Shown here one piece after another: positions 26,184 through 46,065 of a stretch of DNA of 64,000 bases. The stretch is from Dioscorea cayenensis subsp. rotundata. Taxonomy: Eukaryota > Streptophyta > Magnoliopsida > Dioscoreales > Dioscoreaceae. The notes under the pieces were generated by a model. It saw only the letters and a program-made list of their open reading frames with translations. It had not been told where the DNA came from and did no database searches. The first letter of the stretch is position 1; each line of letters starts with the position of its first letter. The translations under genes and the position numbers were made by a program. The stretch covers positions 21,623,912 to 21,687,911 of the forward strand of contig NC_052482.1 of assembly GCF_009730915.1 (NCBI RefSeq), written 5' to 3'.

Positions 26184-26199
26184 ATGTCATGGATGACAT
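26184..26199. promoter_or_regulatory. Palindromic promoter element of SDR copy 1
   Basis: ATGTCAT-GG-ATGACAT has 7-bp arms that are perfect reverse complements. It lies 147 bp before the ATG and 95 bp before the TATA box. The same element recurs before every other full SDR copy. TGAC/GTCA cores are typical of bZIP, WRKY and TALE sites; the actual binder is unknown. Confidence 0.6.
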
Positions 26200-26293
26200 C
26201 TTTATTCAGCCATCGAAAAACTCAAACCGCACTTTCCAACCTTTATCCCTTGCTCTCTAAGTGTGTGGTTGTTTTAGTACTCTTCAGGTCTAC

Positions 26294-26300
26294 TATATAA
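26294..26300 (+). promoter_or_regulatory. TATA box of SDR copy 1
   Basis: TATATAA lies 46 bp before the ATG, in a block conserved across copies (TATATAAxxAGGAGATACAAGTAGG). Confidence 0.65.
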
Positions 26301-26345
26301 GGAGGAGATACAAGTAGGGGATCAAAGAGACATCCAACCCTTGAG

Positions 26346-27564
26346 ATGGAGAATTATCAGAAGAAGAACATCAGTCCGCTGACCAGCCTGGACGGCCGCT
26401 GGTCACTGAATGGAGCCACAGCTTTGGTCACTGGAGGTACCAAAGGAATTGGGTATACACTTCTCTGTCCCATAGCCTTTTATTTTTATTATTATTATTA
26501 TTATTTGGTTCACTTGAATACTCTAGTCTATATTGGACTGTGAACTAAGATATGTAATCAATCCTTCATTCTTTGTATATCAATCTATTCACACTAAGAT
26601 AAGTACCTAACTTGCAGGCATGCCATAGTGGAAGAACTAGCAAAATTTGGAGCCTCTGTTTATACATGTTCTCGAAATGAAGCCGAGCTTGCAGAATGCC
26701 TTAAACAATGGGAAGACAAGAAATTCAAGGTCACTGGATCAGTTTGTGATGTTTCTTCCAGGACTGAACGGGAAAAACTAATGGAGAATGTGTCTACTGT
26801 TTTCCAAGGAAAGCTTCATATACTTGTAAGTATTAAAAAAAAAAAATACAATTAATTTTCCACATGGGGCTTATCTGTGTATCAATTAAAAAATGCGTAT
26901 TCTATAGATAAACAATGTAGGGGTTGGTGTAATGAAACCCACAGTGGAATGTACTGCTGAAGATTATTCATTCATGATGACTACCAATTTTGAATCTGCA
27001 CTCCATTTAAGCCAATTAGCTCATCCTCTGTTGAAAGCTTCAGCATCAGGAAGCATAGTGTTCATTTCCACCATTGGTACTCTACTGGTTTATGAAGGAT
27101 TCGCTCTTTATGCAGCAAGTAAAGGTAAAACCGTAAAACCAATTGTTTTTTGCAAGTATTGAATCTCAATTTGGCTTTTTAGACATTGAATTTCATTTGA
27201 AAAGGAGCTGTGAATCAACTGACCAAGCATCTAGCATGCGAGTGGGCGAAAGACAATATCAGAGTCAACGGCGTTGCACCTTCAGTCATTAAAACGCCTC
27301 TAATCGAAAACCTTGTAAGTTCTAAGGCTCATCTTCAACTGGTTCTCTTGGATAATTACTGTTTTTAATGAGATTGTTTAATTTGGTTAAAAACAGGGTC
27401 TTGAAAATGCATTCGCGGTGAATGAACCACCTCGGACTCCTCTTGGACGTCTAGGCAAACCAGAGGAAGTGGCATCTGTTGTTGTCTTTCTTTGCCTTCC
27501 TGCAGCCTCATATGTTACTGGCCAAATGATCAACGTTGATGGAGGACGAACACAGCCTTGTTAG
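26346..27564 (+). CDS. Tropinone reductase-like short-chain dehydrogenase (SDR65C type), array copy 1
   Basis: This is a classical SDR that reduces or oxidises a carbonyl/hydroxyl with NADP(H); the substrate is unknown. Exons: 26346-26452, 26618-26825, 26908-27124, 27205-27314, 27397-27564; 269 residues, all phases intact. The cofactor loop is TGGTKGIG with CSRNEAE after it (the Arg favours NADPH). The catalytic set is Asn in TNFESA, Ser in ISTIG, and Tyr/Lys in YAASK. The C-terminal motifs are [20 protein letters not shown] and INVDGG. The usual NNAG motif reads NNVG here, a conservative but uncommon change. The gene is open throughout and has its own TATA box and palindrome. Tropinone reductase-like genes are often tandem in plants, and most do not act on tropinone. 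Confidence 0.93.
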
Positions 27565-28008
27565 AACATTGGACAGCAACTTTGATATTGAAGAGCAGAG
27601 ATCTTTCTATATTCAGAACGTGAAGGAAACAACAACCTACTATTTTTATTATCCGCTATATAAGGGATATTCTTCTTCTTGTTTCTAAAAGAAAGTGGAA
27701 TCCCATGTTCTCTCTGTCATTCTAATTTGAGATTATATGGAATGTCATCAACTCTGTGTCATTACTCCGCAATGATGGTTGTTAGCATCATTTGACTAGT
27801 GACAAAGCAAATTGAAAAATAAATAGTACCATACCAATGACTAGTGCCATATATAAATAGTAATATTGTACATATAAGCTGTTAATAATCTTCCCATTAC
27901 GAAGCGTACTTCTACTCTTTGGAGAGGCGTGTCCCGAATTATTTCACATGCCAAGATTGTCTTTCAATCTTTATCATTCGCATCATTTGACTTCATCTCT
28001 TTAATGAC
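27565..28008. other. 3' flank of SDR copy 1 (part of the duplicated unit)
   Basis: TTCAGAACGTGAAGGAAAC and GTGGAATCCCATGTTCTCTC are shared with the flanks of copies 3 and 5, so the duplication unit reaches at least 200 bp past the stop. The Mutator-like element inserts at its right end. Confidence 0.6.
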
Positions 28009-44215: not shown

Positions 44216-44295
44216 CTTTATTTAATGAGCGATAACAAAACTCATTTGGCACTTTCTAACTTTTCTCCCTAAATGTCCAGTGTCAGTGTGTGTGT

Positions 44296-44311
44296 GTGTC
44301 ATGGATGACAT
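44296..44311. promoter_or_regulatory. Palindromic promoter element of SDR copy 5, proximal copy
   Basis: GTGTCAT-GG-ATGACAT lies 184 bp before the ATG. It is followed by the shared block CATCTTTATTGACTATAACC. A GT microsatellite (44364-44388) separates it from the TATA box. Confidence 0.5.
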
Positions 44312-44418
44312 CTTTATTGACTATAACCAAACTCATACGCCATTTTCTAACTTTTGATCTCCCTCTGTGTGTGTGTGTGTGTGTGTGTGGTGGTGGTGGT
44401 ATTAGTACGAGTGATGTC

Positions 44419-44425
44419 TATATAA
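44419..44425 (+). promoter_or_regulatory. TATA box of SDR copy 5
   Basis: TATATAA lies 55 bp before the ATG. The spacing is longer than in the sister copies because of small insertions (ATTAAATC, AAAG). Confidence 0.6.
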
Positions 44426-44479
44426 TTAAATCAGGAGATACAAGTAGGAGTTCAAAGAAAGAGACACCCATACTGTGCG

Positions 44480-46065
44480 ATGGAGGATTGTCAGAAGAAG
44501 AGCATCAATCCTATGACCAGCCTGGAAGGACGCTGGTCACTGAATGGAGCTACAGCTTTGGTGACTGGAGGTACCAAAGGAATTGGGTACTCTTCTCTGC
44601 CGCTTAAAACTTTTTTTTTTTTTGGTTCATTTTAATACTCTTCTCTATATTGAGCTGTGAACGAAGATGCATAATCAATCCTTCATTCTTGGTATATCAA
44701 TCGATTCATATAAAGATAAGTATCTCACTTGCAGGCATGCCATAGTAGAAGAACTAGCAAAATTTGGAGCCTTTGTTTATACATGTTCTCGCAATGAAGC
44801 TGAGCTTGCTGAATGCCTGAAACAATGGGAAGATAAGAAATTTAAGGTCACTGGATCAGTTTGTGATGTTTCTTCTAGAGCTGAACGGGAGAAACTAATG
44901 GAGAACGTCTTTACTGTTTTCCAAGGAAAGCTTGATATACTTGTAAGTATAAAAAATACAGTTATTGTTCTTGTTAGTTGCTGAAGATTTTTGGCATCAG
45001 CAGGTGCTCTTTGTTTTTCAGTTTTTGAGCCAATTTTTGTTCTGGTGGCAATTTTTTAATTCGTTTGGATGAGGGCTGTTTTTTTTTGGTTTGCGGTTTG
45101 GGTAAAACCATGGTTGATCCAATTTTTTTTTTTTAAAATATAGTTATCAGTAGGGTGACAAATGGTTTGACAGCTTTGTTAAAAAAATAATAATAATACA
45201 GTTAGCTTTCCACATGGGCTTATATGTGTGTTAGTCTAACAATGCGTATTATATTGTTCCTGTAGATACACAATGTAGGGACTGCTGTTTGGAAACCCAC
45301 AGTGGAGTGTACTGCTGAAGATTATTCATTGATGATGACTACAAATTTTGAATCTGCACTCCATTTAAGCCAACTAGCTCATCCTATGTTGAAAACTTCA
45401 GTATCAGGAAGCATAGTGTTCATTTCCACCATTGGCACTCATCTGGTTTATGAAGGATTAGCAATTTATTCGGCAAGTAAAGGTAAAACCGGAAAAGCAA
45501 TTTTTTTTTAAAAAAAAAAATGGATAAACCATAAATTTATTAACATGGAGAAATAAAATACAAAAGATAAGACATCAAACAAAAAAATAAGACATCAAAC
45601 AAAAAAAACAAAAGCAGAAACTGCTATCCTCACCAGAGGTGAGAAGAAAAGCAATTGTTTCCACAAGTTTTGAATCTCATATTTGGATTTTGATTGTTTT
45701 CCATTTGAAAAGGAGCAATGAATCAACTGACCAAGCATTTAGCATGCGAGTGGGCGAAAGACAATATCAGAGTCAACTGCGTTGGACCTTCAGCCATTAA
45801 AACGCCTCTAACCGAAAAAAAACTTGTAAGGCTCTTCTTCTTCAACTGACACTCTGGACAAATTGATGAGAATATTGTTTTGGTTAAAAACATGCAGGGC
45901 CTTGGAAATGCATTCATGATGAATGAAACATCTCGGACTCCTCTTGGGCGTCTAGGCGAACCACAGGACGTGGCATCTGTTGTGGCTTTCCTTTGCCTTC
46001 CTGCAGCTTCATATGTTACCGGCCAAATCATCAACGTAGATGGAGGACGAACACAAACTAGTTAG
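44480..46065 (+). CDS. Tropinone reductase-like SDR, array copy 5, introns enlarged by retroelements
   Basis: Exons: 44480-44586, 44735-44942, 45266-45482, 45713-45825, 45898-46065; 270 residues, open. It has [14 protein letters not shown] Asn, ISTIG Ser and YSASK (Tyr and Lys kept). The NNAG motif is HNVG, so the first Asn is lost. NNAG stabilises the central beta sheet, so activity or cofactor binding may be weakened. Exon 4 has one extra codon (TEKKL, from an A-rich run). Introns 2 and 3 carry small insertions with target duplications that are absent from the sister genes. Of the three open copies this one departs most from the SDR consensus. Confidence 0.92.
44965..45204 (+). mobile_element. 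Truncated LINE-type insertion in intron 2 of SDR copy 5
   Basis: ATACAGTTA flanks the insertion (44956-44964 and 45196-45204). Sister introns run from AAAAAATACA straight to TTTTCCACATGG, giving the empty site. The insert has a T-rich 3' region (ATGGTTGATCCAATTTTTTT) and ends in an AAT-repeat tail. Confidence 0.8.
45503..45656 (-). mobile_element. Truncated LINE-type insertion in intron 3 of SDR copy 5
   Basis: The 11-bp duplication GAAAAGCAATT flanks it (45492-45502 and 45646-45656). On the minus strand it ends TTTATGGTTTATCCATTTTT plus T and A runs, the same 3' end as the 32.4-kb tail. A 15-bp internal direct repeat (AAGACATCAAACAAA) is present. It is absent from the sister copies. Confidence 0.8.

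Follow-up and report, generated by a model that had tools for sequence, protein, structure and literature searches.

Tandem reductase genes and a box in their promoters

The window (the whole stretch analysed, 64,000 nucleotides of Dioscorea cayenensis subsp. rotundata DNA) holds a tandem cluster of tropinone-reductase-like SDR genes, made up of the following copies.

26346..27564, plus strand: copy 1, a tropinone-reductase-like SDR gene with 5 exons and an intact 269-aa frame
30172..31366, plus strand: copy 2, gene structure as in copy 1, with a premature in-frame TAG in exon 4 (31052-31054)
34721..34849, minus strand: truncated fifth copy, matched in exon 1 alone, with ~190 bp of homologous promoter
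37390..38586, plus strand: copy 3, 5 exons, intact frame, extra Ser-Ala codon run in exon 3
44480..46065, plus strand: copy 4, intact frame over 5 exons, exon 4 being 113 bp long

The first-pass annotation had counted four full gene copies; of these, copy 2 carries the TAG in exon 4 and is a probable pseudogene. Lack of a splice donor in copy 4 was considered and ruled out, since the 113-bp exon 4 leaves GT-AG intact and restores the frame. The protein of copy 1 matched PF13561 (6e-59) and, in the PDB, 6y4d and 5feu (~1e-105; SDR, noroxomaritidine/norcraugsodine reductase) as well as tropinone reductase I (1ae1, 1e-97). It thus combines the SDR domain with the tropinone-reductase relatives that characterize SDR65C tropinone-reductase-like proteins, the family label itself being that of the first-pass annotation.

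A palindrome had been reported before each full copy, and palindromes are indeed present at 26184, 30009, 37261, 44200 and 44296, upstream of the ATGs at 26346, 30172, 37390 and 44480. They form part of a box that also lies before the truncated copy. Scores are those of model R1, for which each of these boxes was a training sequence.

26184..26213, plus strand: box of copy 1, palindrome ATGTCATGGATGACAT at 26184-26199, then CTTTATTCAGCCAT at 26200-26213 (49.9 bits)
26294..26300, plus strand: TATA box of copy 1, TATATAA, 95 bp 3' of the palindrome end
30009..30039, plus strand: box of copy 2, ATGTCATGGATGACGT then CCTTTATTCAGCCAC (43.1 bits)
35010..35025, minus strand: altered palindrome of the truncated fifth copy, ATGTAATGGATGACTT, 5/7 pairs (44.2 bits)
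37261..37282, plus strand: box of copy 3, GTGTCACGG-TCACGG-GTGACAT (34.8 bits)
44200..44215, plus strand: box 4a of copy 4, GTGTCACGGATGACAT, 5/7 pairs (46.5 bits)
44296..44311, plus strand: box 4b of copy 4, GTGTCATGGATGACAT (39 bits)

The common unit is about 30 bp long and consists of TGTCATGGATGAC followed by CTTTATTCAGCCAT-like text; its consensus is TGTCATGGATGAC[G/A]T, then [C/A]TTTAT-(ATA)-TTCAGCCAT, with the palindrome as its left half. From the palindrome end to the ATG we measured 147, 148, 108, 265 and 169 bp for 26184, 30009, 37261, 44200 and 44296 (a range of 108 to 265 bp), which reproduces the 147-148 bp given earlier for copies 1 and 2. The 8 bp reported for the spacer at 37261 comprise the usual 2 bp and a tandem duplication of 6 bp (TCACGG). 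Box 4b is the second unit of a ~96-bp local duplication, and a (GT)n run adjoins its first G.

A second cluster and the other paralogues

A second related cluster (L035-L039) lies on the same contig at a distance of ~20 Mb. All five members found carry the box, each with the core TGTCATGGATGAC, so that window and second cluster together have 11 boxes; the earlier inventory had overlooked both this cluster and the truncated minus-strand copy. A scan limited to 700 bp found the box in L039 only, while the full 4-kb loci gave it in 5/5, the boxes of L035-L038 being 754-1179 bp from the ATG. Introns differed by K of only 0.01-0.04 among L035, L036, L037 and L039 (L038, which has an exon 3 deletion, was left out of the intron comparison and trees), and the young age of the copies may by itself explain why the L035-L038 boxes are unchanged.

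These loci belong to 29 regions (L035-L063) fetched as multi-exon tropinone-reductase-like clusters from 148 homology matches; distant single-frame SDRs (e.g. on C14, C15 and C19) and a few isolated exon matches were left out. Five regions that have no usable exon 1 start (L040, L043, L049, L051, L063) were omitted from upstream scans and kept in the box and R1 searches. The box is absent from the 24 other paralogue loci fetched. Model R1 recovered the 11 full boxes of the window and L035-L039, having been trained on 9 of them, and had no match at E<=5 in those 24 loci; its 5 further matches are 3'-half repeats in L035, L037 and L038. Five matches to the 13-bp core with at most 2 mismatches lie in the 24 loci (L040, L048, L050, L059, L062), and none of them continues into the rest of the box; by our arithmetic, chance would give about 5 or more in the 103,024 bases.

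The boxes are thus homologous: one and the same block stands upstream of genes or gene fragments in two related clusters, and the search of the 24 other loci did not recover it. This bears out the earlier suggestion that it was inherited with the duplication. Recurrence of the palindrome before the copies is a consequence of this homology. A dispersed-repeat origin was also considered. A genome search with the copy 1 promoter gave 6 matches, all in the window cluster; the same search missed L039, so it does not establish absence elsewhere.

Symmetry and conservation of the box

Next, we asked how well the arms match. Inverted 7-bp arms, variants included, had been described before all four full copies; all 7 pairs are intact only in copy 1, the other palindromes at the reported sites having 6, 6, 5 and 6 of 7; over the 7 rows of our symmetry test, box 4b included, the counts were 7, 6, 6, 5, 6, 5 and 6. 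Nor does symmetry persist through T-to-C changes as proposed: at 44200 a C is opposed to an A, and at both 44200 and 37261 a G stands against a T in the outer pair. The C-G inner pair at 37261 is the sole double change seen, next to several one-sided ones. Arm covariation was not detected (41/49 pairs against a permutation mean of 39.6), in a test of low power, since 28.6% of right-arm permutations reach 41 and this is also the attainable maximum. Position 15 carries a G in copy 2 and L035-L039; copies 1, 3, 4a and 4b have A there, and the truncated copy has T. The right arm hence reads TGACGT in copy 2 and in the second-cluster boxes, as opposed to TGACAT in copies 1, 3 and 4. Plain parsimony does not decide between ancestral G and A; in view of the TGACGT arms, the perfect dyad of copy 1 may have arisen by CpG decay.

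Perfect 7-bp arms around a 2-bp spacer number 67 in the window, 58 made of A/T only and 9 not, copy 1 being among the 9; across five first-order Markov resamples the number was 4 to 8, and a single such palindrome is therefore unremarkable. When up to 3 mismatches are allowed, the palindrome pattern is found at 14 places in the window, where 6.4 are expected (a count of 14 was reached in 1 of 100 shuffles); five of the 14 are boxes treated here. Over the whole genome the exact pattern ATGTCATNNATGACAT was found at 6 places, compared with 12 for a reversed control, hence the exact dyad is not enriched genome-wide.

Substitution inside and outside the palindrome was compared on paralogues only, with box rows aligned by hand, L039 alone representing the five near-identical second-cluster copies, and box 4b kept out of the 6-row counts. 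Left out of the hand alignment were the 6-bp duplication in copy 3, one extra base in copy 2, 4 bases in copy 4a and an ATA insert in L039/L036; indels did not count as changes, which favours conservation. Between copy 1 and L039 the box was identical at 28/30 positions (93%), compared with 251/356 in introns (70%; Fisher p=0.005) and 51/85 in promoter flanks (60%; p=0.0005), both comparisons being post hoc and the flank identity alignment-dependent. The palindrome half did not differ from the 3' half (15/16 vs 13/14, p=1). Across six copies, minority residues per column came to 0.50 for the 16 bp and to 0.57 for the 14 bp that follow (hand alignment: 0.56 and 0.50); flanking stretches had 1.41, 0.94 and 1.19, and the TATA-ATG block 0.81. 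Slower change than in the surroundings is thus seen in part for the 30-bp block relative to its flanks, and not for the palindrome half relative to the rest. The copy 3 box (13/16 and 11/14 against copy 1) was not better kept than its introns (79%). In the intron comparison, 3 coding bases of copy 4 were included in its intron 4. Intron-calibrated star-tree simulations gave p=0.016 for the 13-bp core, 0.046 for 30 bp and 0.16 for 16 bp at a fixed place; the values were 0.51 and 0.54 for the first two anywhere in 160 bp, and 0.99 for the third anywhere. With lower rates nothing was significant. Since significance is lost once the place is free, constraint is unproven.

Candidate binding factors and origin of the box

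WRKY, bZIP and TALE factors had been suggested as binders. As to the WRKY guess, the W-box TTGAC occurs in no arm, the base before TGAC being A or G in the plus arm of all 11 boxes and on the other strand of all 10 with TGAC there. What the arms do contain is the 4-base core TGAC, named WRKY71OS in PMC6801603. The bZIP guess fits some boxes, since TGACG is present in 6 of 11 (copy 2, L035-L039) and missing from 5, and is thus no general feature. Two close TGACG motifs, as in as-1-like elements, were found in 0/11 boxes, as was CGTCA in the left arm. The 600 bp upstream of 31 copies and paralogues, stretches that end short of the L035-L038 boxes, held TGACG 5 times against 8.8 expected, which gives no sign of a TGA programme across the family; paralogue promoters showed no enrichment of TGACG or the W-box. 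For the TALE guess, TGTCA is present in 10 of 11 boxes (the truncated copy has TGTAA), but it is a very unspecific 5-mer and the symmetry argument finds no support. TGTCA was above expectation in the 31 upstream stretches, to which the boxes contribute (63 vs 39.4, 0/300 shuffles), and in the 21 paralogues lacking the box (35 vs 25.4, 8/200 shuffles), the promoters being non-independent in both sets.

SAG13 belongs to the tropinone-reductase-like SDRs and is probably a TGA/SCL14 target. SAG13 (At2g29350) is on the list of genes that N-hydroxy-pipecolic acid induces, and TGA sites are enriched in the promoters of this set (PMC11663584). For TGA factors the minimal site is TGACG, and ROXY19-repressed promoters, a detoxification-linked set, show a 2.45-fold enrichment of TGACGT (PMC9360754, PMC5022239). 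The portions of the literature consulted gave no outright statement of TGA/SCL14 regulation of SDR65C or SAG13.

On balance, we lean towards reading the palindrome as the left half of a ~30-bp inherited proximal-promoter box that was copied with each gene and is a weakly to moderately constrained candidate site. The box would be older than the split of the two tandem tropinone-reductase-like SDR clusters and would have been copied along with each gene. It may be a regulatory site, putatively a transcription-factor site under weak to moderate constraint ~95 bp upstream of the TATA box, in which the core TGTCAYGGRTGAC would be kept and the dyad would not. An ancestral TGACGT probably lost its CpG (G to A), giving the perfect dyad in copy 1, and this half-site would have been lost in copies 1, 3 and 4. 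Where TGACGT survives, in copy 2 and the second cluster, the most plausible binder would be an ACGT-type bZIP of the TGA class. We think it quite unlikely that the box is a lineage-specific regulatory element, its sequence kept while two clusters formed and while an expansion carried it 0.75-1.2 kb away from the ATG in four copies, and that CpG decay in the window cluster turned its binding specificity from that of a TGACGT bZIP site, which is asymmetric, into that of a symmetric TGTCA-N4-TGACA site.

The block could instead be functionless, alike only through recent duplication, its near-palindrome a coincidence in one ancestral promoter. We regard this as possible, and it agrees with the simulations (p 0.51-1.0 with any promoter position allowed), with the youth of the window duplicates (4-fold K 0.15-0.23), with the abundance of perfect arms in the window, with the retention of the box by probable pseudogene copy 2 and by the truncated copy (two arm bases altered), and with the lengthening of the copy 3 box by duplication; it sits poorly with the 93% identity of the box between copy 1 and L039, against 70% in introns and 60% in flanks. 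A true dyad for a symmetric TGTCA/TGACA-binding dimer (BELL/KNOX, TALE), with symmetry under selection as proposed at first, appears very unlikely. TGTCA in nearly all boxes and in excess upstream, including in box-less paralogues, would suit it, as would the name BIHD1OS, for a typical element of homeodomain factors, that it bears in PMC6801603, a paper in which a NAC protein is shown to bind it; against it are the lack of evidence for covariation between arms, the 6-bp change of the copy 3 spacer, the TGACGT right arm of copy 2 and the second-cluster boxes, and the absence of genome-wide enrichment of the exact dyad over its control. We give least credence to a full as-1/ocs-like TGA-bZIP element, an ancestral CGTCA-N4-TGACG with both half-sites now decaying at CpG: TGACGT in six boxes and the ROXY19 and SAG13 sets speak for it, but no left arm has CGTCA and paralogue promoters are not enriched for TGACG.

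Altogether, this is an inherited proximal-promoter box and an ordinary case. What it offers is a defined candidate cis-element, 30 bp long, in a tandem reductase cluster, of little significance outside the gene family. It is also an example of how a palindrome can look conserved among recent duplicates through inheritance, perhaps with CpG decay, and need not have been selected for its symmetry.

Compared with SDR65C genes of flowering plants, the five-exon tandem copies with common promoters show no unusual feature. The boxes resemble the BIHD1OS/homeodomain element in having TGTCA in 10/11 cases, on both strands in copies 1, 3 and 4, and differ in that this is a chance-common 5-mer with no specific flanks to compare and that maintenance of symmetry is unsupported. 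Unlike as-1-like elements, they have neither TGACGTCA nor a tandem TGACG repeat. Among TGA-bZIP sites (TGACG, TGACGTCA, as-1-like), they stand apart in that TGACG is missing from copies 1, 3, 4 and the truncated copy and that the left arm has TGTCA or TGTAA instead of CGTCA; the likeness lies in the TGACGT right arm of copy 2 and the five second-cluster boxes, in the proximal promoter place in copy 2 and L039, and in the oxidoreductase nature of the genes.

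SDR genes and upstream palindromes in the window

The window was placed at C12:21623912-21687911 of a 584-Mb genome with plant-type genes, and holds the following copies and fragments of a short-chain dehydrogenase (SDR) gene.

SDR genes and fragments in the window
Copy 1, start 26346: five exons, intact frame; short-chain dehydrogenase related to tropinone reductases
Copy 2, start 30172: five exons, premature TAG in exon 4 (31052-31054); related to tropinone reductases
Copy 3, start 37390: five exons, intact frame; short-chain dehydrogenase related to tropinone reductases
Copy 4, start 44480: five exons, intact frame; short-chain dehydrogenase related to tropinone reductases
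Truncated fifth copy, 34849-34721, minus strand: match limited to exon 1
Sixth fragment, near 39070-39476: begins within exon 1, no promoter match

In copy 3, expansion of the hexamer AGCTTC in exon 3 (38051-38089) has inserted a Ser-Ala run into the protein. An ORF at 36307-36594, between copies 2 and 3, resembles, by eye, a Copia-type reverse transcriptase fragment (a candidate only), and 29092-29285, before copy 2, is an inverted match of about 87%, clipped by the query end, to 28009-28200 downstream of copy 1.

The palindromes reported before the four full copies by the first-pass annotation are present at the stated positions. Seven of seven arm pairs are intact in copy 1 (26184), 6/7 in copy 2 (30009), 6/7 in copy 3 (37261, once a 6-bp tandem duplication is removed), and 5/7 and 6/7 in copy 4 (44200 and 44296); the truncated copy (35010-35025) retains 5/7. 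Copy 4 carries a local duplication of about 96 bp (44191-44389) comprising the box, which is the palindrome plus the next 14 bp, and its 3' flank; its junction has (GT)n runs.

Conservation of the box between clusters

An exon-by-exon protein search of the genome gave 148 matches and revealed further clusters on C7, C9, C12 (1.1 Mb), C16, C18, C5 and C1783, from which 29 regions (L035-L063) were fetched. In the C12 1.1-Mb cluster, the second cluster, each of the five members found (L035-L039) has the box, and its 13-bp core, TGTCATGGATGAC, is the same in all. It lies 136 bp upstream of the ATG in L039, counted from the core start, and 754-1179 bp upstream in L035-L038, where AT-rich stretches and a tandemly repeated unit of about 110 bp lie in the interval. 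The units sit downstream of the palindrome and before the TATA block (e.g. L037:1430-1720, L036:1456-1760), and repeat sequence resembling the box's 3' half (...TCAGCCATAGAAAAGTGTTTGTGGGG) together with a G-rich stretch. L037, like copy 2, has an in-frame stop. A sequence model of the box, whose training set comprised 9 of the 11 boxes that it finds, had no match in the other 24 fetched loci (E<=5, default filters).

Between copy 1 and L039, the palindrome is identical at 15/16 positions and the next 14 bp at 13/14, against 27/48 in the upstream flank, 24/37 in the spacer, 42/57 in the TATA-to-ATG block and 251/356 in introns. At a place picked after the alignment was seen, the 30-bp box is more conserved than introns (p=0.005) or flanks (p=0.0005); for the 16-bp palindrome alone, the excess over introns has p=0.048. 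Across six copies, minority residues per column number 0.50 in the palindrome and 0.57 in the next 14 bp (0.56 and 0.50 in a hand alignment). The flanks and spacer reach 0.94-1.41 and the TATA-ATG block 0.81, and a star-tree simulation with intron branch lengths predicts 0.80. In that simulation the 13-bp core gave p=0.016 when its position was fixed and 0.51 when any position in 160 bp counted, and with lower rates no test was significant. The post hoc p values and the simulation together make constraint on the box suggestive between clusters and weak within the window, and the signal belongs to the 30-bp box, not to the dyad: among paralogues the proposed inside/outside contrast was partly borne out for the box, post hoc, and did not single out the palindrome.

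Arm symmetry and position 15

It had also been proposed that two copies kept symmetry through T-to-C changes; the sequences contradict this. The changed base at 44200 stands opposite an A that has stayed the same, and the two copies with GTGTCAC have G versus T as their outermost pair. When left and right arms of seven boxes were re-paired in every way, the observed 41/49 pairs, also the maximum (mean 39.6), occurred in 28.6% of cases; for six boxes, the observed 35/42 was attained in 33.3%. Re-pairing thus gave no evidence of arm covariation in either set, with little power because so few arm changes exist. Maintained symmetry, the most interesting claim, was not borne out, and the palindrome finding is ordinary.

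Position 15 is G (TGACGT) in all five second-cluster boxes and copy 2, A in copies 1, 3 and both copy 4 boxes, and T in the truncated copy. Since the gene trees are near star-like (support 29-72% at nodes uniting window copies) and do not recover these copies as a single clade, plain parsimony leaves G versus A undecided. CpG hypermutability favours an ancestral G; an ancestral ACGT core would then decay at its CpG, and the perfect dyad of copy 1 would be a by-product.

Candidate binding factors

The arms lack the TTGAC W-box of WRKY factors, one of the suggested classes. The usual TGA-bZIP site is TGACG, and ROXY19-repressed promoters, a set linked to detoxification, show enrichment of TGACGT (PMC9360754, PMC5022239); Arabidopsis SAG13 is listed as induced by N-hydroxy-pipecolic acid, within a gene set enriched for TGA sites (PMC11663584). 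Six of the 11 boxes contain TGACG, and 31 upstream stretches show no enrichment for it (5 versus 8.8 expected). TGTCA, described as a homeodomain element and in one study the target of a NAC protein (PMC6801603), occurs in 10/11 boxes and is over-represented in the 31 stretches (63 versus 39.4 expected), with a milder excess in the 21 without a box (35 versus 25.4), the promoters being non-independent in both comparisons. Judged from these motif counts, neither TGACG nor TGTCA establishes a factor for the box. Altogether, this is a proximal-promoter box passed down by inheritance that may be a functional site. In copy 1 its end lies 95 bp upstream of the TATA box TATATAA (26294-26300), a position common for activator sites.
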